A stretch of DNA of 23,072 nucleotides. Origin: a virus. The stretch is taken from IMG/VR virus record IMGVR_UViG_3300045974_000189, positions 1 to 23,072 of that record; one strand, given 5' to 3'. The translations under genes were made by a program, and so were the position numbers. Below, piece by piece: positions 8,064-20,443 of the stretch. How positions within the stretch are numbered: the stretch's first letter is position 1; each line of letters opens with the position of its first letter. A model generated the notes under the pieces. That model was given only the letters and a program-made list of their open reading frames with translations. It had not been told where the DNA came from and did not search any database.

Positions 8064-9851
8064 TTAGGCTACGGCTTCTTCCGGGGGGATCAGTTCGGCA
8101 GCGTTAAGAGATAGAAGCTGCACGAACATCTCCTTCTCATCTTCCGGTAAAGCGTCGATAGCCTCGCGGATACCCTCTACCTCGTCCTCGGTGTACGGGC
8201 GCGAGGGTTCAACGATTCCCTCGGCCTCAAGGAAGGAGTCAACTAATTCAGCAGCCTTCTTGACGTTCACCTTGGGCTTCTTGCCTGGAACGCCCTGCAC
8301 CACACGCTTCACGCCCTTAGGCGTTGCGACATGGGATCCACCGGATCCCAGTTTAGGGCCGTTAACCGCCCCGGGTTTGCGGTCAGCCCGGGGAGCAGAT
8401 AACCCCGGGGCAACAACGGGGAGGATGGGCTTCTGGTATTCGAGATTGATGCCAGCGACCCGGTTGATTTCATCAACGAAGCCTGGACCCTTGGAGACAT
8501 CCTTCGCAAGAGTCAGCGCCGCAATCTGCGCCTCGGCATTCTTGAGCGTGATCTTCTTGGAGCGGAAGGAGCAGGTCTTAGCCCCTAACTCCCGCATGAT
8601 GGTCAGGTTAAAGATTTCGTCGAACTCGTTGCGCTCGGGCTCAAATACCTGGGCCTCGGCAAGCATGTAGCTCACCTGGGCAGAGGCGTAGTTGTAGTCC
8701 GAAGAACGGCCTAGGAACAGGGGCGGTAGACGGAACCCAACCCGGACATGCTCCTCGGTGTTCTTGTCGTAGTTCTGGAACATCGAATCCTTAACAGATT
8801 CGGCTCCGAACCTCTCCACCTTTACGGAGACTTTACCGGAGGAGTCGAGAGTTCCAGACGAGGACTGTGCCTCCACGATTGCGGCGCGATGACGAGACTT
8901 AAGTTGTCCCGAAACATAGGCTTTAAGCTGGTTGGACATATCCTTGGCGAGAGTTCCACCCTCGATAAAGATAATGGCGGGGGGCATACCACCAGAGTCG
9001 AAGAACTCAAGGATGTGTTCTTCAGCCTTACGGGAGCCAAGAACGGATGGCAGTTCGTTGATCCAGCTAGGGATTCCGTAGGGGGTGTTAACATCTGGAT
9101 CCTTGGTAAAGACAAGGAGTTCAGTCGCCCGCATATCTGGGGGGACGGGGGCCGCAGGAGTCTCCCATTCACCAGTATCCCGGTGGAGTACGCGAGTGCA
9201 ACCGTACTCCTTGTAGAACCTGAGCTTAACCGCGCCTGCTCCTGCTCCTACTCGCTGGGCGAAGCGGCGCTCCCGTTCCCACAGGGTAATCTCAATCTCC
9301 TTACCCTGGCGCGTGAGCTTCTTCTTGACCTGTACTGGCTGATCAAGCTTAACGAAGCGTACCGTGGAGACAGGTACGTTACGGATAGCTGCAAGGCCCG
9401 CGTCTAGGAACCTGAGAACCTCAAGCACGCCCCAACCTGCACCCTCAATATCGCGCCGCAGGGCGCGTCGGAGGGTGACTAGGGACTGACCGGGGTAGGG
9501 TTCGTCCAAGAAGGCGTTGATCTTCTCGGCCTCCCCGTCCGCAACCTTGGCGTCGCTCTTGTGGGGAACAAGCTCATGCCCGGTACCGTCGATGTTGACT
9601 TCCATCGCCGTAATACACTGGTTAAGAACGTTGTTCTGGGTAACTAGGCCGATAAGCTTCTTCGGATCGTAAGGAGGCTCGATCAGAAGTTTTGACTTGT
9701 CGCTAGTTGTATAATACAGGCCGAGGAATTCGTCCTCAGGCTGGTAAGCCGAGTCGGCCATAACAAGGTACGTGTCGCCACGGATTACCTTGTTAACGAA
9801 CGATACTTTCGACTCTTCCTTCGGGGGGGTTTTCTTGACCGTGACAGCCAT
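8064..9851 (-). CDS. portal protein
   Basis: 595 residues, start ATG 9851. It has the order of a PBSX/HK97-like phage portal: an N-terminal extension, then 'VTQNNVLNQCITAMEVNIDGTGHEL', a wing region with 'LRRALRRDIEGAGWGVLEVLR', 'FTKDPDVNTPYGIPSWINELPSVLGSRKAEEHILEFFDSGGMP', and the stem/crown text 'VGFRLPPLFLGRSSDYNYASAQVSYMLAEAQVFEPERNEFDEIFN'. The last is a strong portal marker. It forms the twelve-fold ring through which DNA enters and leaves the head. The C-terminal 120 residues (from about 475) are an added low-complexity basic linker and an acidic helical tail (EDEVEGIREAIDALPEDEKEMFVQLL). No terminase gene precedes it; an HNH gene does. Confidence 0.9.
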   Translation of the reverse strand: MAVTVKKTPPKEESKVSFVNKVIRGDTYLVMADSAYQPEDEFLGLYYTTSDKSKLLIEPPYDPKKLIGLVTQNNVLNQCITAMEVNIDGTGHELVPHKSDAKVADGEAEKINAFLDEPYPGQSLVTLRRALRRDIEGAGWGVLEVLRFLDAGLAAIRNVPVSTVRFVKLDQPVQVKKKLTRQGKEIEITLWERERRFAQRVGAGAGAVKLRFYKEYGCTRVLHRDTGEWETPAAPVPPDMRATELLVFTKDPDVNTPYGIPSWINELPSVLGSRKAEEHILEFFDSGGMPPAIIFIEGGTLAKDMSNQLKAYVSGQLKSRHRAAIVEAQSSSGTLDSSGKVSVKVERFGAESVKDSMFQNYDKNTEEHVRVGFRLPPLFLGRSSDYNYASAQVSYMLAEAQVFEPERNEFDEIFNLTIMRELGAKTCSFRSKKITLKNAEAQIAALTLAKDVSKGPGFVDEINRVAGINLEYQKPILPVVAPGLSAPRADRKPGAVNGPKLGSGGSHVATPKGVKRVVQGVPGKKPKVNVKKAAELVDSFLEAEGIVEPSRPYTEDEVEGIREAIDALPEDEKEMFVQLLSLNAAELIPPEEAVA

Positions 9852-9852
9852 C

Positions 9853-10332
9853 TTACGCGCCCCACTTCCGCAGATACTCAGCGGCCTTGATCAGTAATTC
9901 TGGATTATCAAGAAACTGCCCTAGCCCGAGGTTGCACTTACGGCACAAGAGATCACGGAGCTTGCCAGTTATATGGCAATGGTCTACGTGAGCGGAGTAC
10001 GCACCGGAATCCCCGGGGCTAGTTTCTGCTAATGGCTTGGAGCAAACCGGGCACTTATAGTCCTGCGCCGCAAGTTTAGCTAGAAACTCGTCGCGGGAGA
10101 TACCGTGCCGGTGTTTGCGGGCGTTATCCGCTAGTTTTTCTGGCGAGTACGTGTACTTTGGTAACGTACCTTCAGAAATTCTTTTGTCACGCCACTTCTT
10201 GCTAGCGGCGGCTGCATACCCAGGGTGCTCGTCACGAAATTTCTTACTTTTTAGGAGACCCCTATCCTCTGCGGATAGTTTAGTGGAGTCCGTGGTAGTG
10301 GACTCGACTAATTTCGGGGACAACTCAAGCAT
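9853..10332 (-). CDS. HNH endonuclease, endonuclease VII type
   Basis: 159 residues from ATG 10332 (AGAGG seven bases before); an in-frame TTG at 10338 is less likely. The C-terminal half has the T4 endonuclease VII-like fold: a zinc site CPVC...CRKC enclosing the catalytic 'AHVDHCHITGKLRDLLC' (D-H-C-H) and ending 'CNLGLGQFLDNPELL'. The N-terminal half is basic and contains 'HRHGISRDEFLAKL', usual in free-standing phage HNH genes. It may be a homing endonuclease or a junction resolvase. It sits alone between a promoter/palindrome and the portal gene and stops one base before it, so it looks like an inserted gene that now shares the portal promoter. Confidence 0.82.
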   Translation of the reverse strand: MLELSPKLVESTTTDSTKLSAEDRGLLKSKKFRDEHPGYAAAASKKWRDKRISEGTLPKYTYSPEKLADNARKHRHGISRDEFLAKLAAQDYKCPVCSKPLAETSPGDSGAYSAHVDHCHITGKLRDLLCRKCNLGLGQFLDNPELLIKAAEYLRKWGA

Positions 10333-10364
10333 TGACAAACCTCTTGTGGTGGGTAACTAGGGGT

Positions 10365-10710: not shown

Positions 10711-13068
10711 TCATGGCTTTACCTTGGACAAATCCGCCATGTTTTTTCCCACCTTGCAATCCGCGATAAACTTGAGCTGCGGTTGCCACCCTAGCTTCTC
10801 AAAAGGCAGGTTCTCCATCAAGTCGCGCTTACGCTTGACGATTGCTTCGACGTTCCCCTCAGGAACATAGTCATATGCTGCGTCGTGAATCACGGCAAAC
10901 GCGGGAGATTCCTTGAAGCCACCCTGCGCGTGTTCGATGCCCAGAGCCCAGATCATCATGTCCGACAGGGTAGACTGAACCGGGCTATTGATGGCCTGAC
11001 GTTCCGCATCTGAACGAGTATTTCGATGCGGGCTCTTGATGAGCGGGAGGTTACGCACGCGCCCAAGCGGGGACATGATCTTGCCGGTCTGAGTTACCTG
11101 GGCAATGCAGTATTGGTGATATTCCACCAGCTTGGGATACATCTCAAAGAATTTCCTGTGGATATCCTGGGCTTGCTGGTTGGTGAGGATCACTCCGTAG
11201 TTCAGTTCTGCGTAAGTCTGGAAGCCCTCCCACCCCTGACCGTAGAGCAGGCCGAAGTTGGCGGGCTTGGCGGGGGTACGGATCTTGTCGTACTTATCCG
11301 GGTCCGTAGTCTCTAGGGCCTTTACCTCTTCGTAAGTCATGCCCACAAGACCGGCACCGGTTTTAACGTGAAGGTCTTTGCCTGCGCGGTACGCCTCAAG
11401 CATTTCCGTTTCTTCCGCGAGACAAGCAACGACCCGCAGTTCGCCCTGTGAGTAGTCGCGTTCAAGGACGAGGTAGCCGGGGGGTGCGGTGAACACTCGC
11501 CGCAGCCTTTTACCCCACTTGGTATGCTTCGGTAGAGTTTGGATGGCGGGGTCACGCGCCGACAGACGCCCGGTGACTGTGCCTCCTTCGCCTTCATCCT
11601 TGTTACCCTTGAACAAGAAGTAGCTAGGGTGGTATCTCCCGTCTGAACGGAGATGCTTCTGGAACCCCTTGATGTACGTACTAAGGGTTTTGGAGGTAGA
11701 CGAGAAACTGTCTAGGAGTCTGACGAAGGGACCGGCCTCAGGGTGGTCTTTGAACTTTAGGAGGTGGTCGAGGGAAGTGCTGGGCTTCTTGGCTTTCTCT
11801 GTGAATTCAAGGGGCTTGATGTTCAATCCGGTGGGACTAAACATGAAATCCGTTAGGAGGCTTGCCTTGGTGAGATTGATGCCACCGGGCCTATCGGGGT
11901 CACGATGCTTTGCGTACAGACGCCCGCCGAGTATGCCTACCGCCTCCGCGATTAACTTATCTAATTCGTTACGAAGGTCGGCCTCTAGTTCACGGTACGC
12001 CTCTTTGTCAACGAAGACGCCGCCGCGCTCGATTACTTCAAAGGCCCTAGCTGCCGGATGGACGCAGGTAATGTAGAAATCGGTTAGCTTCTTACTCTTG
12101 AGAAGCTGCGGTGTCATCGCCTCCGCAACTTGAAGCCCTGCATCGGTGTCGCCGCCCGCGTAGGTCTTGAAGTAGTCGGGGTCTTCAAGGTACCGAAGAT
12201 CCATGCGGCTCTTATCCCAAGTCCGATCAGCAAAATCGGAATAGCCGCCAAGACCTGTATAGATTTTGGCATGGACATCCAGGGCGTTTGAACGATTTTC
12301 ATCTAGTAGGGAGCCGACTAGGGTGGTGTCGAACTTGAAGTTGGTACATTCCAGATTGCGGGCGTGGAACCATACCCACATCATATCAAACTTCCCGTTG
12401 GCAAGCCGCAGACTGATCTTGGGGGAAGTGAGCAGGAATTTCAGTTGCTCGAACAGGCAACGATCTAGTTCGGAATCGTAGTGTTCCTTGGAACTAAAAT
12501 ACTTGATGGCTGAGTAGCCTACGCGGTGGCTGAACTGCCACGTTACGAACCGCGCCGCAGGACGATCCCCTTCTGCCAATGCCAAGGGGTCGGCACCGAT
12601 TGTCTCGGTGTCGAAGCACACCTTCACGGGTTTACCGGTTACGGAATACTGTTCCTCGATGTCCGCGATCATTGCGGAGAAGTCGGACACGTATTCATAA
12701 GTGCCGATTACAGGCTCGTGCGACCCTGTGAGAGCGATTCGCGCCGCAAGCCGTACATCGCACAGGAGGTCGATGTATTGACTGTAATCGACCTCGTAGA
12801 TGGCGGGGGAGTAGCTAATGATCAGGCGGGTGCTACCCATCTGATGCACTTGGTTCCGCAGGGAGTTAATGGTGGACTTCTTGCGGATCTTTCCATGCGC
12901 CTCAAGGGCGTCCCGGGTGTGGGAGCCCATGGCAAGGACAAGCTCGCCGTCCGGGAGCCGGGTCAGGTCGTTTACTATCTTGTATTTAACATCTGGGGGT
13001 AGAACCGAAGCAATCGACCCCATTACCTTGGTTGCCGGATCCTTAGTCCAGATTGTCAGTACCGGCAT
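10711..13068 (-). CDS. DNA polymerase, family A, with 3'-5' exonuclease
   Basis: 785 residues. The exonuclease domain shows D153/E155 (FDTETIG), N224/D228 (ANGKFD) and Y303/D307 (YAGGDTD). The polymerase domain shows TGRLS (499-503), motif A with D538 (DYSQGELR), motif B with K601/F605/Y609 (KPANFGLLYGQG) and 'RQAINSPVQST' (690-700). Motif C is 'VIHDAAYDYVP' with H728/D729. All catalytic acids for both activities are present, so it should copy the phage genome with proofreading. Motif C has Ala730 where most of the family has Glu (HDE). The residue matching E. coli 762 is Phe (F605), common in virulent phages. Residues 1-140 are an N-terminal part not recognised. The start overlaps the previous stop (TAATG) after a run of six G. 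Confidence 0.93.
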   Translation of the reverse strand: MPVLTIWTKDPATKVMGSIASVLPPDVKYKIVNDLTRLPDGELVLAMGSHTRDALEAHGKIRKKSTINSLRNQVHQMGSTRLIISYSPAIYEVDYSQYIDLLCDVRLAARIALTGSHEPVIGTYEYVSDFSAMIADIEEQYSVTGKPVKVCFDTETIGADPLALAEGDRPAARFVTWQFSHRVGYSAIKYFSSKEHYDSELDRCLFEQLKFLLTSPKISLRLANGKFDMMWVWFHARNLECTNFKFDTTLVGSLLDENRSNALDVHAKIYTGLGGYSDFADRTWDKSRMDLRYLEDPDYFKTYAGGDTDAGLQVAEAMTPQLLKSKKLTDFYITCVHPAARAFEVIERGGVFVDKEAYRELEADLRNELDKLIAEAVGILGGRLYAKHRDPDRPGGINLTKASLLTDFMFSPTGLNIKPLEFTEKAKKPSTSLDHLLKFKDHPEAGPFVRLLDSFSSTSKTLSTYIKGFQKHLRSDGRYHPSYFLFKGNKDEGEGGTVTGRLSARDPAIQTLPKHTKWGKRLRRVFTAPPGYLVLERDYSQGELRVVACLAEETEMLEAYRAGKDLHVKTGAGLVGMTYEEVKALETTDPDKYDKIRTPAKPANFGLLYGQGWEGFQTYAELNYGVILTNQQAQDIHRKFFEMYPKLVEYHQYCIAQVTQTGKIMSPLGRVRNLPLIKSPHRNTRSDAERQAINSPVQSTLSDMMIWALGIEHAQGGFKESPAFAVIHDAAYDYVPEGNVEAIVKRKRDLMENLPFEKLGWQPQLKFIADCKVGKNMADLSKVKP

Positions 13069-13457: not shown

Positions 13458-13683
13458 TTGCCCTCCAATCGACGGCGGGGCCGTCTTGCTTGGCTTCGGC
13501 GCGGCCGATCCAGGCCCCAAAGACGTAGAGGTCGTAGGTGTGGATGAGGAACCTTCCGTTGTCGCGGACTTTGACGAGTTTTCCAATGATTTCTCCGAAC
13601 TTGAAGGGGGAGGGGAGGGGTAGGAGGTCATCGACCTTGGCCTCCCCAAAACGGCAATCAATCTGGGGTTGTTTAGCTGCCAT
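13450..13683 (-). CDS. hypothetical protein (77 aa)
   Basis: 77 residues from ATG 13683, preceded by GGAGGGG and three bases. MAAKQPQIDCRFGEAKVDDL at the start, then strand-like text (FGEIIGKLVKVRDNGRFLIHTYDLYVFGAWIG). It overlaps the end of the HNH gene before it by 11 bases and the next gene by 8 bases, so the three are tightly packed. No recognised motif. Confidence 0.6.
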   Translation of the reverse strand: MAAKQPQIDCRFGEAKVDDLLPLPSPFKFGEIIGKLVKVRDNGRFLIHTYDLYVFGAWIGRAEAKQDGPAVDWRAID

Positions 13684-14050
13684 TAGCCCCTCCATGGGAA
13701 AGGTATTCAATCGCCTTAGCAAGAAGTTCGATACTATCCTTGAATTTACCTAATCCTGTGTTGCACTCAAGGCAAAGAATGCCTCGCACCTTTTTGGTTG
13801 CGTGGCAATGGTCTACGTGTGCGGCCTTTGGCCCGGTAATATCAGTAGGGCAGATGGCGCACTTCCCACCCTGCCGTGCAATCAATTGCATAAACTGTTC
13901 AGCCGTTATCCCGTACCTCCATCGCCGGTAATCATCCGGGGTTGCAGGGTGCGTCTTGTTGCGTACCCTAGCCCGTGCGAGGTACTTATCCTTGTCCTTA
14001 AGGTAGTGGGTGCGATGTTCCTCGTACCGGAGAGAACGGGCCTTAGCCAT
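13673..14050 (-). CDS. HNH endonuclease, endonuclease VII type
   Basis: 125 residues, start ATG 14050 with AAGGGGG seven bases before. Zinc site CAIC...CLEC encloses 'AHVDHCHATKKVRGILC' (catalytic D-H-C-H), then 'CNTGLGKFKDSIELL'. The helix 'YGITAEQFMQLIARQGG' precedes it. It is a shorter relative of the HNH gene at 9853-10332, with about the same C-terminal layout, and both belong to the endonuclease VII family. The basic N-terminus (KARSLRYEEHRTHYLKDKDKY) probably binds DNA. The codons for MQLIA contain palindrome copy 6. Start and stop overlap neighbours, so it is fully built into the operon. Confidence 0.82.
   Translation of the reverse strand: MAKARSLRYEEHRTHYLKDKDKYLARARVRNKTHPATPDDYRRWRYGITAEQFMQLIARQGGKCAICPTDITGPKAAHVDHCHATKKVRGILCLECNTGLGKFKDSIELLAKAIEYLSHGGANGS
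13877..13890. promoter_or_regulatory. 14-bp palindrome copy 6 (centre CA)
   Basis: TGCAATCAATTGCA inside the HNH gene at 13673-14050, with no -10 sequence at a proper distance. A coding-region copy of the dispersed family. Confidence 0.7.
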
Positions 14051-15024
14051 TAGATAACCCCCTTGAGGGACGGCACGATATGGACGAACTTCAGCTTATC
14101 GTGGAAGAAGAGGCACCCCATCACACGTTCTACCGGGACAGTCCCCAGTTCAAAGTGTTCCGACATATATTCCCCGGCGCTGTGATACTGGAACCCAAGT
14201 TCCGCGAGCGCCACCTTCTCTACTAGGTTAATCGGTCCCTCGACGCGAACCGATAGCTGCGTTCCCTTGAGTCGCGCCGCCATCTTAATGCGTTCCCCAA
14301 GAGCGATAACCTTGTAGACAGAGCCGGGGGAGCTTCCGAGCACGGGCTGGTTAAGAAGTGTTGCATCCTTGAGGGCAATCGCGTTCCCCGTCCCCGAATA
14401 CATCGGAGGAGGCAGCTTCGCGGCGGCTGCTAGGATTTTCTCCGGGTAGTTTTTGGCTAGCGAGTTAACCGTGATGTCGATACCCAAGGGATTATCCCCC
14501 GCGTTAACCTGTGCCACTCCGAATTCAGGAATGCCAGTAAGTTTAACCTTCGCAGCCGCAACATCGACCTCTGCCATCATTTCCTTAAACGATTGATTCT
14601 TACCGGCAGGTACCGTGTTGTCCTTGGGTAGTCCTCCATCGGTATTCCAATGCAGTACGGACTTAGGCGTAGGACCGGGGGAGAACGGGGGATACCCCAG
14701 CCCAAGATCAACCGCCAACGGGGGGGGTGGGGCGTATACAGGCTTCCCCTCGATAGTGGACAGGCACTTGGCAAGGAACAGGTCAACCCCATGCCGAAGC
14801 TGACCATGCATCTCGACGGGAACGATGCCCTTGATAACCGCCGTGCTGTTGACGGGCATCGGGTGCATCCAAGTCTTTACGCCGTGAGATACCTTGAGGG
14901 CCTGGAACTGCACCTCGACCGTGGCCCCGTGGGTTGTTACAAGCTTTTCAGCCGAATCGACGGCGAAAGCCCCAATTTTCTGGAAGAACCCAAAGTTACC
15001 TTTGGGGGACATCGAAATAGCCAT
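14050..15024 (-). CDS. hypothetical protein (324 aa), first gene of replication unit
   Basis: Start ATG 15024 (MAISMSPKGNFGFFQKIG), chosen because GGAGTG lies just before it; the frame is open upstream to 15048. The N-terminal 115 residues are beta-like (GATVEVQFQALKVSHGVKTWMHPMPVNSTAVIKGIVPVEM). A Pro-rich linker follows (residues 105-130, PPPPLAVDLGLGYPPFSPGPTP). The C-terminal half has helices and strands and includes 'QLSVRVEGPINLVEKVALAELGFQYHSAGEYMSEHF', which could be a small alpha/beta domain. It is controlled by a near-consensus promoter and the shared CAATGGAGTGA leader. It precedes the polymerase genes. I do not recognise the family. Confidence 0.65.
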   Translation of the reverse strand: MAISMSPKGNFGFFQKIGAFAVDSAEKLVTTHGATVEVQFQALKVSHGVKTWMHPMPVNSTAVIKGIVPVEMHGQLRHGVDLFLAKCLSTIEGKPVYAPPPPLAVDLGLGYPPFSPGPTPKSVLHWNTDGGLPKDNTVPAGKNQSFKEMMAEVDVAAAKVKLTGIPEFGVAQVNAGDNPLGIDITVNSLAKNYPEKILAAAAKLPPPMYSGTGNAIALKDATLLNQPVLGSSPGSVYKVIALGERIKMAARLKGTQLSVRVEGPINLVEKVALAELGFQYHSAGEYMSEHFELGTVPVERVMGCLFFHDKLKFVHIVPSLKGVI

Positions 15025-15028
15025 GTGA

Positions 15029-15041
15029 TCACTCCATTGTG
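15029..15041 (-). promoter_or_regulatory. shared leader motif with ribosome site, copy A
   Basis: CACAATGGAGTGA on the minus strand, five bases before ATG 15024. Same motif as at 17303, 17859, 20433 and (one mismatch) 21290. It carries the GGAG ribosome site. Confidence 0.65.
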
Positions 15042-15061
15042 GGCGCAACCGTTATGGTGCA

Positions 15062-15090
15062 TTTATACGAAATACACCCAGCGAAGTCAA
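15062..15090 (-). promoter_or_regulatory. strong sigma-70-like promoter for 14050-15024 unit
   Basis: Minus strand: TTGACT (15090-15085), 17-base spacer, TATAAA (15067-15062). The expected start is near 15055. The spacer contains CTGGGT at the same place as in the promoter at 17340-17368. No palindrome nearby. Confidence 0.72.
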
Positions 15091-15602
15091 GGTAAATCAG
15101 CGTAATACGCCGCTGGTTTGCGCGGGCGCCTATTAGTATTTTGTTCCTTCACAGACGCCCAACGACAATTACTTAACTCGTAATTTCCGTCGTTGTTTAT
15201 CCGGTCTAACGTTAGGTTACCCGGCCTAGGCCCCATATCGGCAGAAAAATTCTCAAATGACTTCCAACGTGGGCAAACAGTGATACCTCGCCCCCCGTAC
15301 CATTTGTAAGTTCTATGGTTCTTGTCATAGCACCGGGTAAACATCCCAGCCCAGATTCGGTACAAAGAGGTTTTAGTCTGCCCATGTGTCTTATTGGCCG
15401 TTGAAGTCTTAAGTCTCTGCAAACATCCGCAAGAATTACTTAGCCCTCCGCGCAATGAATACCCGTGTACTAAGGTTTCTTTCCCACAATCACAGGAGCA
15501 GATCCAACGGGCCTGTCCTACAGCAGTATTTTCTCCCCGGCCAGTAACAAGGAGTCTTCCGAATCGGAGCCCCGTCAAATCCTTGAAATTAGCCCGGGGC
15601 AT
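15087..15602 (-). CDS. HNH homing-type endonuclease with zinc-ribbon N-terminus
   Basis: 171 residues, start ATG 15602 overlapping the previous stop (TGATG). N-terminal part 'DLTGLRFGRLLVTGR', 'WICSCDCGKE' and 'NSCGCL' is the zinc-ribbon/AP2-like module of many phage homing HNH proteins. The C-terminal part 'HGQTKTSLYRIWAGMFTRCYD', 'YKWYGGRGITVCPRWKSFENFSADMGPRP', 'LTLDRINNDGNYELSNCRWA' is the matching HNH-like nuclease module. It likely nicks or cuts DNA to spread itself. It differs in family from the two endonuclease VII-type genes. Its last codons overlap the -35 of the next promoter by four bases, so it occupies the end of the metabolic operon. Confidence 0.82.
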   Translation of the reverse strand: MPRANFKDLTGLRFGRLLVTGRGENTAVGQARWICSCDCGKETLVHGYSLRGGLSNSCGCLQRLKTSTANKTHGQTKTSLYRIWAGMFTRCYDKNHRTYKWYGGRGITVCPRWKSFENFSADMGPRPGNLTLDRINNDGNYELSNCRWASVKEQNTNRRPRKPAAYYADLP

Positions 15603-16276
15603 CACGCTGCCCAGATTGACTTTTTCGACGGGGCTGGCTGAAAAGTCTTACGGGTCTTTCCGTCCGAACCGACTGAGGAACTGTAGGACGGAATCGATGT
15701 GCCTAAAAAACCTGTGCTCGGCGCGGTAGAGGTATACGACTTGGTGGGCTTCGCGGGTAGTGCGCCGAAGTGCTTGACGAGGAAATCGATCTGGGACTGG
15801 GATTCAACCGCCTTTTTGCAATGGTGCTCCCGTGCCCAGGCAATGCAATCTTTGTGACCGAACCTTGCAGCGATAGCAGCAAAGAGAGTGCCCGTCCTAC
15901 CGTGCCCGCCGATGCACCCGGCATGAACCTTCTTCCCTTCCTGCAATTGATTGCACAACCAATCAACCATCTTCTTGAATGACTCCGGATCGGACGGAGC
16001 CTTCATATCTGTGATTGGGTAGTGTACGTGTTCCTTTCGGTGTTCGGCCCAAGGATAAGCGGCGTCATCTAGATTCATCGAGCCGTCTAATCCGATATAG
16101 ACATCGAATCCCTCACGGGGGTTAGAGCAAGAGGCACCTACAAGCTCGCCGCCGCCGATCTTGATTACCGGATGGCTGACATGGCACCTGGGTCCGGACG
16201 GAGCCTTATACTTCCCGTCGTTGTCATGGTAATTCAGCCAACCGGAATCGGTGTCCTTTGAAAACTTCTTCCCCAT
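15602..16276 (-). CDS. protein phosphatase-like, Cys-x5-Arg (dual-specificity/PTP fold) with tail
   Basis: 224 residues. The P-loop is 'AGCIGGHGRTGT' with C121 and R127, matching the PTP/dual-specificity signature C-x5-R-[ST]. D90 in 'PITDMKAPSDPESF' is a good candidate general acid about 30 residues earlier. The usual His before the Cys is replaced by Gly. It should remove phosphate from a protein or other phosphate ester. Residues 30-80 contain 'VIKIGGGELVGASCS' and 'FDVYIGLDGSMNLDD', the N-terminal strands. The last 50 residues are Ser/Thr/Lys-rich and probably disordered. Palindrome copy 7 lies in the WLCNQLQEG codons just before the P-loop. It is a distant relative of the phosphatase at 17365-17856. 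Confidence 0.8.
   Translation of the reverse strand: MGKKFSKDTDSGWLNYHDNDGKYKAPSGPRCHVSHPVIKIGGGELVGASCSNPREGFDVYIGLDGSMNLDDAAYPWAEHRKEHVHYPITDMKAPSDPESFKKMVDWLCNQLQEGKKVHAGCIGGHGRTGTLFAAIAARFGHKDCIAWAREHHCKKAVESQSQIDFLVKHFGALPAKPTKSYTSTAPSTGFLGTSIPSYSSSVGSDGKTRKTFQPAPSKKSIWAA
15942..15955. promoter_or_regulatory. 14-bp palindrome copy 7 (centre TG)
   Basis: TGCAATTGATTGCA inside the phosphatase gene, no -10 at a proper distance. It is read in a different codon frame from the other coding copies. Confidence 0.7.
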
Positions 16277-16277
16277 G

Positions 16278-17297
16278 TTACGCCGCCTTCCTAGTCAGCT
16301 TAGTAACCGCAACCCCGGGCATGACGAAGAACTGTTCGCCGGGTACATAGACCTTGCCGTTGCCCGCCTTGATAGGTGCGGGAGCCGTCTTGGGCATAGC
16401 CGCCTTTTCAGCGGAGTATTTGTGATAGCCACCCAGATCCTCGACCTTATTCCAATCAACGTAATCCCCGAAGGCTTCCGGGTAGTTCGCCTTCATCGTT
16501 TTAACCGCAGTAAGGATACCTGGGGGGATGAACTGGGACGGGACTTCCTTGTTAAGCACAGCCTCGGGAATCTGCCCCGACCTCTGAACGTCAAGGATCT
16601 TGGTTAGATGCGTCGTGCTATGCGTATGGTAGAGCATCCCCTTGTTGAACATCGGCCCATTGTTGTGGGCAAGGCAGTACGCACTATCGACCATCATTTC
16701 GATAGAGGTCTTGCCGTTCACCATCTGGGATACGCAATTCGCAATGTTCCCCCACGGCTTGCCGCCGTATCCGCCGCTGAAACTACCCTGGTTGAACAGG
16801 TGAACTACGTCGGAAGTGTACTTCCCAAGGGGCTGATCCGGGGGGTTGGCGCAAAAGCTATTGGCCGTAACGATTGAGCCTGAGCCCTTGATCATACTGT
16901 GGAAAGATTTGTGGGCAGGGTGTGCATTCTTTAGAGCCGTCGCCGGGTTCTTGAGGTGCCGTGACTCCCTGGTGATGATGAGCAACATATATGCATAGAG
17001 GCGCTTACCCTGGTCAGACAGGGCAACGACGTATTCCCCCATGATCTTCTGCGCCCAATCGGGCAGGATTTCGTCCTGATCGAAGTTGCTACGGATGATA
17101 GCCACCAGATGGTTCAATGCGTAGAAGCTAACCGCATCGAACTCAGGGTGAACAAGCATCGAGTTACTTTCGATGTAGTTCCAATACTGCTTGACCCTGA
17201 CCGCAGCCTCGGGCACCGGGAACGCCGATAGATCCGTGGCTACAACCTGGGGGATAGAGAGGTACGACCTAATCGTTCCCTTGGGTGTGAATTTCAT
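16278..17297 (-). CDS. hypothetical protein (339 aa) between two phosphatases
   Basis: Start ATG 17297, chosen because the earlier GTG 17306 is part of the GGAGTGA ribosome site. It begins MKFTPKGTIRSYLS. The protein is helical. The middle holds 'GSFSGGYGGKPWGNIANCVSQMVNGKTSIEMMVDSAYCLAHNNGPMFNKGM', a Gly-rich turn followed by 'LAHN.GP.FNKGM', which I think recurs in uncharacterised phage proteins. Then 'YHTHSTTHLTKILDVQRSGQIPE'. His, Asn and Asp clusters in this part could be an active site, but I cannot name one. It has its own promoter and leader and is translated with the phosphatase after it (one base gap). Confidence 0.65.
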   Translation of the reverse strand: MKFTPKGTIRSYLSIPQVVATDLSAFPVPEAAVRVKQYWNYIESNSMLVHPEFDAVSFYALNHLVAIIRSNFDQDEILPDWAQKIMGEYVVALSDQGKRLYAYMLLIITRESRHLKNPATALKNAHPAHKSFHSMIKGSGSIVTANSFCANPPDQPLGKYTSDVVHLFNQGSFSGGYGGKPWGNIANCVSQMVNGKTSIEMMVDSAYCLAHNNGPMFNKGMLYHTHSTTHLTKILDVQRSGQIPEAVLNKEVPSQFIPPGILTAVKTMKANYPEAFGDYVDWNKVEDLGGYHKYSAEKAAMPKTAPAPIKAGNGKVYVPGEQFFVMPGVAVTKLTRKAA

Positions 17298-17302
17298 TAT
17301 TG

Positions 17303-17315
17303 TCACTCCATTGTG
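17303..17315 (-). promoter_or_regulatory. shared leader motif with ribosome site, copy B
   Basis: CACAATGGAGTGA on the minus strand, five bases before ATG 17297; identical to copy A over 13 bases. Preceding bases GGCGGCACC also resemble the leader of the PPDK-like gene. Confidence 0.65.
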
Positions 17316-17339: not shown

Positions 17340-17368
17340 AATATAGCAGCGTTACCCAGAAATATCAA
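17340..17368 (-). promoter_or_regulatory. promoter for the 339-aa gene
   Basis: Minus strand: TTGATA (17368-17363), 17-base spacer, TATATT (17345-17340). The expected start is near 17333. CTGGGT lies at the same spacer position as in the promoter at 15062-15090. The -35 overlaps the end of the upstream phosphatase gene. Confidence 0.68.
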
Positions 17369-17856
17369 GATACATTTCTAATGAAATCAGGCGGATTAAT
17401 GCAAATTCTCCTACTTACGAGGCCGCGCCACTTGAGCATAATCACCTTGGCCTTGAGAGACAGGGGGAACTCAAGCTTTGCGATGAATTTCTCTTGCTCG
17501 GCAGTCTCAACAGCGTGGTTATAGTAGGTCTTACGCACAAACTTGACCGGATCCTTGATCCCCCAGAGCTTGGCGAAGGCAGCCATGAACAATCCGGTAC
17601 GTCCCTTCCCACCCATGCAGCCGACGTAGATAGGCTTGCCCTGGAGCATGTACGTCATGGTCTTGGACATCCCGGCAATCAGGGGTTCGGCCTTGGGAAT
17701 GGAGAAGTCCCTGATAGGGATATCTACCTCGGCGGGGGCGTTGATTTCCTCTGCTAGCTTAACCCCGACCATACCGGTAGCACGCTCACGGTAAGGCCCG
17801 CCGAAAATGAGGTACCTCCTGCCATTCTTGGCAGGCAATTCAAGCTTTCCCAGCAT
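17365..17856 (-). CDS. protein phosphatase-like, Cys-x5-Arg (dual-specificity/PTP fold)
   Basis: 163 residues from ATG 17856 (leader CAATGGAGTGAAC). The P-loop 'VGCMGGKGRTGLF' has C80 and R86, and D50 in 'PIRDFSIPKAEPL' is the candidate general acid. The signature C-x5-R-T is intact; the usual His before Cys is Gly, as in the second phosphatase at 15602-16276. After the P-loop, 'FMAAFAKLWGIKDPVKFVRKTYYNHAVETAEQEKFI' is the typical helical end of the fold. The last 25 residues are basic. It acts in the cytoplasm (no signal or membrane segment). It lies downstream of the PPDK-like kinase in the same operon, so phosphate addition and removal may be linked. Confidence 0.8.
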   Translation of the reverse strand: MLGKLELPAKNGRRYLIFGGPYRERATGMVGVKLAEEINAPAEVDIPIRDFSIPKAEPLIAGMSKTMTYMLQGKPIYVGCMGGKGRTGLFMAAFAKLWGIKDPVKFVRKTYYNHAVETAEQEKFIAKLEFPLSLKAKVIMLKWRGLVSRRICINPPDFIRNVS

Positions 17857-17858
17857 GT

Positions 17859-17870
17859 TCACTCCATTGT
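17859..17870 (-). promoter_or_regulatory. shared leader motif with ribosome site, copy C
   Basis: ACAATGGAGTGA on the minus strand, two bases before ATG 17856. This copy is inside an operon, in a 20-base gap without a clear promoter. Confidence 0.6.
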
Positions 17871-17876
17871 TAGACG

Positions 17877-18206
17877 TTACCGCTTAGGTAATCGTCGTGT
17901 CAGTTTAACTTCCCCGCGACCACAGCAAATTTTACAGTCTGCAACAGCTTCAAAGTTATCGACGCACTCACACTGTTCCCACACAATGAAATCACGGGTA
18001 TCAACATCTGGCGACTGCGACCGCAGATCAGTTACTTGAATCACTTTGCCCTCGCGGATATCGAAGATCCAATGATGAAATCTTCGATTCCCTCGCGGGT
18101 GCGAGACAATAGCCGACTTGGCAAGAATATCATCGAGCCGATCAACTAGCCCGGTCCTGCGTAACATCGGCTCTACCGATTGTGCGTATTTAAGGGATGC
18201 GCTCAA
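17877..18206 (-). CDS. hypothetical protein with Cys-rich C-terminus (109 aa)
   Basis: TTG 18206 (GAGAG seven bases before) gives 109 residues; ATG 18167 would give 96. The N-terminal part is helical (VDRLDDILAKSAIV), then 'RRFHHWIFDIREGKVIQVTDL'. The C-terminal part 'CECVDNFEAVADCKICCGRGE' has a C-x-C...C-x-x-C-C layout with the CxxCxGxG-like turn of DnaJ-type zinc fingers. It probably binds zinc and could bind RNA or protein. With the TTG start it overlaps the CsrA-like gene by 17 bases. Function unknown. Confidence 0.6.
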   Translation of the reverse strand: MSASLKYAQSVEPMLRRTGLVDRLDDILAKSAIVSHPRGNRRFHHWIFDIREGKVIQVTDLRSQSPDVDTRDFIVWEQCECVDNFEAVADCKICCGRGEVKLTRRLPKR

Positions 18207-18462
18207 TTCGGATCTCTCTGGGTGCCTCGAAAGCTAGTCGAGTATAACCTTCCTTAATCGAATCCTCTTCCTTGCCGCAACTAACGAACACATTATCCAT
18301 TAGCTTTGCGCGTTCAAGGTCGGTGATCAGGATCTCTCTACCGTCGAATGCAACCCTAACATTGCTGGGGGAAACTACCTCAAGCACGGTCATAATATGT
18401 GACTTGCCCTTGACGATGAACCGTACTTTCTTGCCGCCGCGTACGCCGAGACTAAGTGCCAT
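18190..18462 (-). CDS. small CsrA-like RNA-binding protein (tentative)
   Basis: 90 residues, start ATG 18462 with AGGAGAG five bases before. The end 'YTRLAFEAPREIRIERIP' matches the last strand of CsrA (pattern R-[IL]-[GA]-[FV]-x-A-P-x-[EQ]-[IV]-x-[IV]-x-R), including the conserved AP and R. The start 'KKVRFIVKGKSHIMTVLEV' suits the middle strands. It is longer than CsrA (about 60) because of roughly 28 residues between strands ('DGREILITDLERAKLMDNVFVSCGKEED'). If it is CsrA-like it would bind GGA motifs in mRNA leaders, and five phage leaders here carry CAATGGAGTGA-type sites. It might instead be an unrelated small beta protein. Confidence 0.5.
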   Translation of the reverse strand: MALSLGVRGGKKVRFIVKGKSHIMTVLEVVSPSNVRVAFDGREILITDLERAKLMDNVFVSCGKEEDSIKEGYTRLAFEAPREIRIERIP

Positions 18463-18477
18463 GGTGTCTCTCCTATA

Positions 18478-20430
18478 TTACTGACGAAGCAGGGCGTGTG
18501 CAAGCTGGGACTGAGAAGCATATCCCCCCGGCTCAATAACGCCCAGCCTTAGAATGTTCGCACCCTCGATTTGCTTCTTCCACGCCGCCAACTTCGCCAC
18601 CCACGGACCCGAAGCATCAAGGAGGAAATCACCCTCTGCCAGTACGAGATCCTCTGCCGTCTTCACCTGTGCAATCGATTGCAGGTTAGCAGGCAGCTTA
18701 TCCTTAGGAATAGTGGTCAACACCTGGATTTTCTTACCCTTTAGTCCGATACACCCCAGAGACAGAGCAGATACACGGGTTGCCTCGTTCCCAGTAGTAG
18801 ACCCGAACATCTCTTCAAACGCGGCCCTTGCTCCGTTGTACTCGGGGCGAAGGTCAACGATTACATGGTCCCTCGTAGTAAGGGCTTCCTTCACGCGGGC
18901 CGCGATGCTATCAACCCTAACATCGGAAACGTCTAGGAGATCGGCGTTCTTGTCACCGATCACCTTCACCTGTGCGAAGTCGGACAGGTACTTGTTCAGT
19001 TTAGCAACCCAAGGATCAGCGGCCCCGGAGATAACCGGTACCTTACCGTTCCACACCCTGCCCGTACCTCCGTCGATGGTAATCGTGAGATCCCCATTGA
19101 AGATTAGGATATCCTTGGACAGTCCGACAACGCACGGCTTGTTCATCGACCGCGCAACAACTGCGGCGTGAGAAGTCGCCCCACCGGTCATGGTCAGCAC
19201 GCCCTTGGCTGCGTGCATTCCTGCGATATCGTCGGGCGTCGTTTCCTTGGTAACAAGGATGCACGGCACCTTGGACTTCACGGCCTCTTCAGCAGTACGG
19301 ACGATCTTGCCGGTTGCAACGCCGCTGCACGCCGGGATTCCTACGTGCGCGGGCGGCGTCTTGAAAGTAGGATCAATGACTTCACCCTGCGCCTTGAGGT
19401 AGTCCTTGAAGGTGACACGCTGGAACAGTTCCTTCAAGGTGAGGTTGATGTTCTTGTCCTCATGCATCTCCACCGCAATCCGCACCGCCGCCCTAGCAGA
19501 ACGCTTCGCGTTACGGGTCTGGAGGATGTAGAGTTTCCCATCCTGCACCGTGAATTCGACATCCTGCACATCGCGCTTGAGAAGTTCAAGCTTGATGACA
19601 GTATCGAGAAGCTCGTCGGTTACCTTCTCGTTCCACTCCTCCATTTTGGCGAGCGGCATCGGAGTCCTGATTCCTGCAACGACATCCTCACCCTGAGCGT
19701 TAATGAGGAATTCGCCCTTAACCTCGTCGGCCCCAGAGTCGGGGTTGCGGGTAAAGAGGACGCCCGTGCAAGACTTGTCGTTGAAGTTACCGAAAACCAT
19801 CGACTGAATGACTACAGCCGTGCCCCAATCGTTTGGGATGTTGTTCAGCTTGCGGTATGTCTTGGCGCGTTCGTTGTTCCAAGACTTAAAGACCGCTTCG
19901 ATAGCGCCGAGAAGCTGCCCCTGAGCGTCGGGGAACGCCTCGTCTGTGGTGAACGTCTTGTAGTAGTCGAGCGCCGCCGCAGAATCCTTGCCCTCGAAAT
20001 TGTGCCGGGGCATTCCGCGCACCACCGAGCCGTACATCTCGATCAGTCGCTTACGAGAATCGAGTACGCACTTCTCACCAAGGCGTTCGACCCACTTCTC
20101 AGCGTTGGTTTCATCAAGACCGACGTTAAGGATGGTATCCATCATCCCAGGCATCGAAACCCGCGCACCGGAACGAACGGAAACCAGCGGCATATAGCCG
20201 AACTTAGCGTTAAGCCGCAGCATCCAAGATTCGATGTCCTTGGAGATGGCCTTCATCGTCGTCTTGGGCTTCTTCATGTACTCTACGCAAACATCCGTAG
20301 GAATGATGAAGCCTGGGGGGACGGTGATCCCGTTTTTGTCCATCCAAACGAGGCCCGCACCCTTGCCACCAAGAACCGTGGCAGAAGTCTCGGATACCTC
20401 AATACCTAAACCGAAAGATTGAATAGCCAT
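18478..20430 (-). CDS. PPDK-like phosphotransferase lacking the pyruvate/PEP domain
   Basis: 650 residues from ATG 20430 (leader CAATGGAGTGAC). Residues 1-315 form the ATP-binding domain: 'VLGGKGAGLVWM' (19-30), 'SVRSGARVSMPGMMDT' (84-99), 'SCTGVLFTRNPDSG' (220-233), 'EFLINAQGEDVVAGIRTP' (240-257), 'DVEFTVQDGKLYILQTR' (290-306). Residues 355-460 are the swivelling phosphohistidine domain with H421 in 'TMTGGATSHAAVVARSMNKPCV'. The remaining 190 residues do not show the usual TIM-barrel motifs or the catalytic Cys of pyruvate phosphate dikinase, and full-length enzymes are about 870-900 residues. This tail holds a duplicated 'PWVAKL' element (473-478 and 609-614). ATP should still phosphorylate His421, but the final acceptor is unknown. 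Pseudogene decay is unlikely, since the frame and ATP domain are intact. Confidence 0.88.
   Translation of the reverse strand: MAIQSFGLGIEVSETSATVLGGKGAGLVWMDKNGITVPPGFIIPTDVCVEYMKKPKTTMKAISKDIESWMLRLNAKFGYMPLVSVRSGARVSMPGMMDTILNVGLDETNAEKWVERLGEKCVLDSRKRLIEMYGSVVRGMPRHNFEGKDSAAALDYYKTFTTDEAFPDAQGQLLGAIEAVFKSWNNERAKTYRKLNNIPNDWGTAVVIQSMVFGNFNDKSCTGVLFTRNPDSGADEVKGEFLINAQGEDVVAGIRTPMPLAKMEEWNEKVTDELLDTVIKLELLKRDVQDVEFTVQDGKLYILQTRNAKRSARAAVRIAVEMHEDKNINLTLKELFQRVTFKDYLKAQGEVIDPTFKTPPAHVGIPACSGVATGKIVRTAEEAVKSKVPCILVTKETTPDDIAGMHAAKGVLTMTGGATSHAAVVARSMNKPCVVGLSKDILIFNGDLTITIDGGTGRVWNGKVPVISGAADPWVAKLNKYLSDFAQVKVIGDKNADLLDVSDVRVDSIAARVKEALTTRDHVIVDLRPEYNGARAAFEEMFGSTTGNEATRVSALSLGCIGLKGKKIQVLTTIPKDKLPANLQSIAQVKTAEDLVLAEGDFLLDASGPWVAKLAAWKKQIEGANILRLGVIEPGGYASQSQLAHALLRQ
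18670..18683. promoter_or_regulatory. 14-bp palindrome copy 8 (centre CG)
   Basis: TGCAATCGATTGCA inside the C-terminal domain of the PPDK-like gene, encoding part of LQSIAQ. No -10 at a proper distance. Confidence 0.7.
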
Positions 20431-20432
20431 AG

Positions 20433-20443
20433 TCACTCCATTG
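20433..20443 (-). promoter_or_regulatory. shared leader motif with ribosome site, copy D
   Basis: CAATGGAGTGA on the minus strand, two bases before ATG 20430. The bases before it, GCGGCACCC, resemble the leader of the 339-residue gene. Confidence 0.62.

Follow-up and report, generated by a model that had tools for sequence, protein, structure and literature searches.

A short phage relative of pyruvate phosphate dikinase as the candidate phosphoryl donor of a conserved multi-protein system

The phage protein described here keeps the phosphoryl-donor half of pyruvate phosphate dikinase (PPDK), has lost the PEP/pyruvate barrel, and is encoded next to an all-helical protein, U, and Cys-based phosphatases (PTPs). 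In our assessment it is somewhat probable that this dikinase supplies the phosphoryl group in a conserved phage system of several proteins, in which the acceptor would be bound by U and the phosphate removed by the PTPs. We found no description of a dikinase-U-PTP system in the open-access literature, most subscription journals lying outside that scope. The gene is located on the minus strand of the window, i.e. the whole 23,072-nucleotide stretch of viral DNA that was analysed, and has the following features:

20436..20439, minus strand: GGAG, likely ribosome-binding site for the dikinase ATG (read from the sequence)
18478..20430, minus strand: PPDK-derived His-swivel dikinase-like protein (650 residues; ATG at 20430, stop codon included and ending at 18478)
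19396..20430, minus strand: ATP-grasp (PPDK_N) nucleotide-binding domain, about residues 1-345 (Pfam PF01326 with residue mapping and conservation), with catalytic residues K23, R86, R128, E240, E248, D249, E292, Q304 and R306
19045..19344, minus strand: phosphohistidine swivel domain, residues 363-462 (Pfam PF00391; Foldseek 2fm4)
19168..19170, minus strand: codon of H421, the predicted phosphoryl-carrying histidine, equivalent to PPDK H455 (conserved in 78/78)
18481..19044, minus strand: C-terminal alpha/beta domain, residues 463-650, in place of the PEP/pyruvate barrel, with no conserved site

The donor half is intact, as the earlier note on this DNA had claimed. Pfam identifies both PPDK_N (E 1e-46) and PEP-utilizers (residues 389-457, E 7e-24), and no Pfam domain is found beyond residue 457. 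In the PDB alignment, residues K22, R92, R135, E271, E279, D280, E323, Q335, R337, T453 and H455 of PPDK correspond to K23, R86, R128, E240, E248, D249, E292, Q304, R306, T419 and H421 of the dikinase, respectively. All eleven catalytic residues are present and are 88-100% conserved among 78 phage relatives, with H421, R86, E248, E292, Q304, R306 and T419 being invariant (78/78). The protein possesses both the nucleotide-binding domain with its catalytic residues and the swivel with a phosphorylatable His in GGxTSHAAVVAR that characterize PPDK (TIGR01828), and structure alignment with the C. symbiosum enzyme (1KBL) gives about 30% identity over the ATP-grasp and His-swivel. The AlphaFold2 model of the dikinase has a mean pLDDT of 92.0 and a pTM of 0.85. 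A decaying gene can be ruled out, since the catalytic residues are conserved and omega is well below 1. In one divergent clade of dikinase ORFs (L172, L173 and L176), GSATCHAAVVAR replaces GGATSHAAVVAR around the catalytic His, which is itself kept.

The same cannot be said of the PEP/pyruvate TIM barrel. The PPDK equivalog TIGR01828 aligns only with residues 11-493 and scores 465 bits against a cut-off of 843, and PDB sequence matches stop at about residue 490. Downstream of the His, the proteins of 16 isolates, including J26, whose protein has been published as a PPDK, lack each of seven PPDK barrel motifs, while all seven are present in the five true PPDKs examined; a TIM barrel with GHRGCRL, GTMIExPRA, TNDLTQ and CGEHGGDP, as expected of a PPDK, is found in none of the 16. 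The motifs are also absent from the 78 metagenomic relatives, save for a loose 3-residue pattern in nine of them. The isolate proteins have 229-266 residues after the His compared to 417-425 in true PPDKs, and the C-terminal part of the window's protein comprises about 190 residues compared to about 350 in PPDK. These results bear out the earlier note's statement that the barrel is gone. Since the Pfam, TIGR01828 and PDB matches all stop before the C-terminus, its description of the ORF holds, except that too much weight was placed on a duplicated PWVAKL element.

The C-terminal domain is predicted by AlphaFold to be folded (pLDDT mostly 80-93), but it is the fastest-evolving part of the protein, with a mean identity of 0.17 among 78 relatives vs. 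0.51-0.59 in the donor domains. Conservation reaches 90% in only one of its 188 columns, that of P465 at the domain border, and the best-conserved position inside the domain is D526 (86%). In close pairs, omega for this domain is mostly 0.09-0.39, with dS saturated in two pairs; judging from these values, the domain is maintained by purifying selection. Relatives have between about 140 and 290 residues after the His, the second half of the domain is missing in some clades, and the whole domain is absent from split versions of the system (see below). The two copies of PWVAKL are real (residues 473 and 609), but the element occurs in none of the 78 relatives; being unique to the window sequence, it is ruled out as a functional element. 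Given the single conserved column and a repeat without counterpart in relatives, the region probably does not provide the new acceptor site that had been proposed for residues 462-650. Structure prediction and fold search, which had been suggested as a check, returned a folded domain but also a possible shrunken barrel: Foldseek aligns the dikinase model over 770-890 columns of the 870-residue PPDK chains, an extent that must span the barrel region. From the extent of this alignment, the domain is probably a lineage-specific remnant of a shrunken barrel; profile-profile comparison (hhalign) of the region with the PPDK barrel detects no sequence homology (probability 0.1%). A domain that is maintained yet so little conserved would suit a role in structure or docking better than one in catalysis.

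The family extends beyond this phage and is already known, under the name PPDK, from Stenotrophomonas, Rhizobium, Rhodobacter and Vibrio phages. The dikinase is a member of phrog_18609 (E 5.4e-170, residues 17-545). Full-length relatives with 48-49% identity are found in the Stenotrophomonas phages DLP5, DLP3 and Summit, and further ones in the Rhizobium phages RHph_TM16 and RHph_Y1_11, the Rhodobacter phage RcZahn and about 30 Vibrio siphophages. The genes labelled ‘kinase’ in phrog_18609 and ‘pyruvate phosphate dikinase’ in phage records belong to this same family, and their annotation as glycolytic auxiliary genes is unsupported here. From isolates and viral contigs, we gathered 97 distinct complete dikinase ORFs, two of which are real PPDKs (424 residues after the His); the others have 144-290 residues after the His, with a median of 236.

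Downstream of the dikinase, the window encodes two small ORFs, PTP1, U and PTP2, in this order:

18190..18462, minus strand: 90-residue ORF, no family (24 of 94 related loci)
17877..18206, minus strand: 109-residue ORF, no family (23 of 94 loci)
17365..17862, minus strand: PTP1, Cys-based phosphatase with CMGGKGRTG (phrog_17568, PF22784; 91 of 94 loci)
16278..17306, minus strand: U protein (phrog_20946; 90 of 94 loci)
15602..16276, minus strand: PTP2, second Cys-based phosphatase, with CIGGHGRTG (88 of 94 loci)

Among the 73 short-type dikinase loci having at least 4.5 kb downstream, 72 show the order dikinase-PTP-U-PTP and one shows U-PTP. Conversely, the dikinase lies upstream of U for all 90 U genes with room upstream, and it is present in all of 40 U-bearing phage records but one, a 5.8-kb fragment. 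The short phage dikinase differs in this respect from PPDK: it always occurs with U and PTP genes, whereas the two full-length PPDKs that we found are without the module. The synteny is the same in DLP5, DLP3, Summit, RcZahn, RHph_TM16 and the Vibrio phages, with PTP2 missing in the stretch read for some of the latter, e.g. SIO-2 and J26. It should be noted that the synteny of the fused family may partly mirror common descent within one phage lineage, since DNA polymerase A and a 332-residue protein are also widely shared, and that the two PTPs could act in another pathway. The conserved partner set, i.e. phrog_20946 with one or two PTPs, provides a better lead to the acceptor than the C-terminal domain.

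Both PTPs have the C-x5-R-T/S active-site loop (CMGGKGRT in PTP1, CIGGHGRT in PTP2), and GC.GG.GRTG is invariant among the PTPs in the isolate alignment. The PHROG label ‘thymidylate synthase’ for phrog_17568 is ruled out, as these proteins are PTPs. The DLP5 gene DLP05_143, annotated as ThyX, is PTP2, and the phosphatases are mislabelled as thymidylate synthase in several GenBank records; this looks like a propagated mis-annotation. None of the four proteins of the module matches a defence system in PADLOC.

U has 342 residues and is all-helical in the AlphaFold model (pLDDT 92.9). It has 33 columns that are at least 90% conserved, many of them polar; the conserved residues include E114, R116, H117, W185, D207, H214, N215, K222 and D239. 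Its fold has no match in the PDB (best TM about 0.2, E above 1) and matches only its own family in BFVD, which rules out a known fold in these two collections; U is thus predicted to be a novel fold with a conserved polar site. A U-like core, YGGxxW...D..y.L.HN...FNK...LD, is also found inside phage proteins of 1000-3200 residues (L093/L208, L096-L100 and L211) and at 422523-422906 of LR756511.1, a 595 kb phage. No PPDK_N, PEP-utilizers or PTP domains were found on the giant-protein contigs L093 and L096-L100, which are fragments. As these U-like domains occur in giant proteins without detected dikinase or PTP domains, U itself may be active independently of the dikinase.

Scanning 84,980 species genomes for U yielded seven loci (L193-L199; Azospirillum, Roseococcus and MAGs), which rules out U as a bacterial housekeeping gene. 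The six with a complete or near-complete dikinase are all short-type with the module, so that these bacterial-assembly loci are probably phages or prophages. One of the module loci lies in a 667-kb Roseococcus contig. The occurrence of the module in bacterial assemblies suggests prophages or phage-plasmids; DLP5 persists as a phagemid.

Synteny within a single lineage can be inheritance, but the same kit also occurs in split form in four contig groups (L094/L095, L202/L203, L204/L205 and L206/L207), which we take as independent assembly. Here, a swivel of 105-138 residues with GSITCHAAIVAR is followed by U, a PTP and an ATP-grasp of 266-290 residues, each as a stand-alone protein; the L207 contig stops ahead of the ATP-grasp gene. 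For L094, the matches of the ATP-grasp are to PEP synthase, HpeI and RPH and not to PPDK, and the split-kit genes are the only ORFs that L094/L095 have in common with the window. All four split U proteins keep the E, R, H, GG, W, D, H, N, FNK and LD of U. The functional unit would consist of ATP-grasp, His swivel, U and PTP, placing the C-terminal domain outside the minimum. A set that is linked in about 100 phage loci and in two architectures presumably does something that phages repeatedly need.

We propose that the ATP-grasp would phosphorylate H421 of the swivel by PPDK chemistry, probably ATP + Pi -> AMP + PPi + His~P, and that the swivel would pass the phosphoryl group to an acceptor bound or supplied in trans by U. 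The PTPs, as putative antagonists, would dephosphorylate the product or return the cycle to its starting state, and the C-terminal domain would serve structure or docking, not catalysis. Autophosphorylation of H421 is well supported by analogy within the family and would be expected here, since VadK (Rv1127c) of M. tuberculosis, a truncated PPDK without the pyruvate domain, autophosphorylates His422 with ATP/Mg (PMC13400623). Transfer in trans also has a precedent: HpeHI is a two-component small-molecule dikinase with donor and acceptor parts as separate proteins, and the substrate of the Hpe pathway is phosphorylated, transformed and then dephosphorylated (PMC12167813). The aromatic dikinases HpeHI, CreHI and PpsAB share with the phage system a donor ATP-grasp and a His swivel that work in trans and are split over genes. 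In HpeH, an RPH-like acceptor domain is part of the same chain as the swivel, whereas the phage U stands apart as a protein whose fold is different and unmatched. The phage protein is a donor enzyme of the PPDK/PEP-synthase/RPH superfamily, with a layout closest to PPDK and VadK. Since it most probably does not work as a PPDK and its His phosphotransfer half is fully conserved, a phosphotransferase with another acceptor, as the earlier note had suggested, is the best reading; the evidence lends no support to an acceptor site in residues 462-650. With three to four cloneable proteins, the system offers a route to a new phosphorylation target.

Several other explanations were weighed. Phage papers name the gene an auxiliary glycolytic PPDK (PMC12038007, PMC9229204, PMC10141217), which would boost host energy metabolism, and GenBank annotates it accordingly; the case for J26 ORF98 relied on structure prediction and on docking of PEP (PMC12038007). 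The sequence evidence speaks against this view: J26 itself lacks all seven barrel motifs, the residues after the His number 229-266 instead of about 420, TIGR01828 scores far under its cut-off, and the overlap with the PPDK reference in the J26 paper covers residues 1-527 (PMC12038007). A working PPDK is very unlikely on these grounds, and a true PPDK serving as an auxiliary metabolic gene is hardly credible. It is less improbable, though still unlikely, that the C-terminal domain of about 190 residues binds an acceptor of its own, making the protein a self-contained small-molecule phosphotransferase like rifampin phosphotransferase (RPH). The predicted fold and the purifying selection in the informative pairs agree with this, and RPH and PPDK generally combine donor and acceptor in one chain; against this reading stand the near absence of conserved columns, the loss of half or all of the domain in some clades and in the split systems, and Foldseek alignments that span the full PPDK chain instead of ending at the swivel. 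RPH shares the logic of donor and swivel with another acceptor but differs in its domain order and its large RIF-binding domain, and it matches neither U nor residues 463-650 in sequence or fold. An RPH-type acceptor domain or order was not found, as RIF_Ptrans (NCBIfam) gives 55/999 bits from the donor and swivel parts only, and Foldseek comparison gives a TMq up to 0.43.

Slightly less likely again is a VadK-like regulatory histidine kinase that modulates a host or phage protein directly, with U and the PTPs forming a separate pathway. VadK interacts with methylcitrate-cycle enzymes (PMC13400623), and the dikinase resembles VadK (PRK05878 type) in being PPDK-derived, with the catalytic His and ATP site kept and the pyruvate domain lost; the NCBIfam model PRK05878 for short PPDKs comes near its cut-off (443.6/456 bits). 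However, this would leave the near-perfect linkage with U and PTPs, fused and split, unexplained, and VadK has neither such known partners in its description nor an extra C-terminal domain. To return to the donor enzyme of a multi-protein system, one specific form of it can be put forward tentatively, as a rather speculative candidate: an undescribed phage DNA or nucleotide modification (hypermodification), in which the dikinase, derived from PPDK or from PEP synthase, would phosphorylate a base or nucleotide held by U, U chemistry would follow and the PTPs would finish the reaction, the pathway having been assembled at least twice with different donors. DNA or nucleotides are candidate acceptors because only 4 of 36 enzymes cut DLP5 DNA (PMC5834331) and 0 of 15 cut DLP3 DNA (PMC7326821), and because nine module phages have no dNMP hydroxymethylase (ThyA-type, PF00303) and no TGT/dpdA (PF01702); the phosphorylate-transform-dephosphorylate use of a dikinase in the Hpe pathway (PMC12167813) is in keeping with this scheme. 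If true, such a pathway would explain the restriction resistance of DLP3 and DLP5. However, the restriction data come from these two module phages, a literature search on the Vibrio members having yielded none, and both phages have a glycosyltransferase and sugar epimerases that are equally possible causes, and no DNA-binding motif was found in U.

Other genes in the window were also noted. The 332-residue protein (14050-15048), located between PTP2 and DNA polymerase A, is present in 65 of 94 loci and belongs to no family; at this position, some Vibrio phages have a gene annotated as ‘transporter’ or ‘pyruvate decarboxylase’, without clear support. Two endonuclease VII-like genes and one HNH endonuclease gene (13673-14050, 9853-10338 and 15087-15605) are scattered through the replication/head region, occur in few relatives and are probable homing endonucleases. 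In both the window and its relatives, DNA polymerase A is found almost directly before the portal gene (10711-13068 to 8064-9851 in the window), an unusual placement of a replication gene beside the head module.
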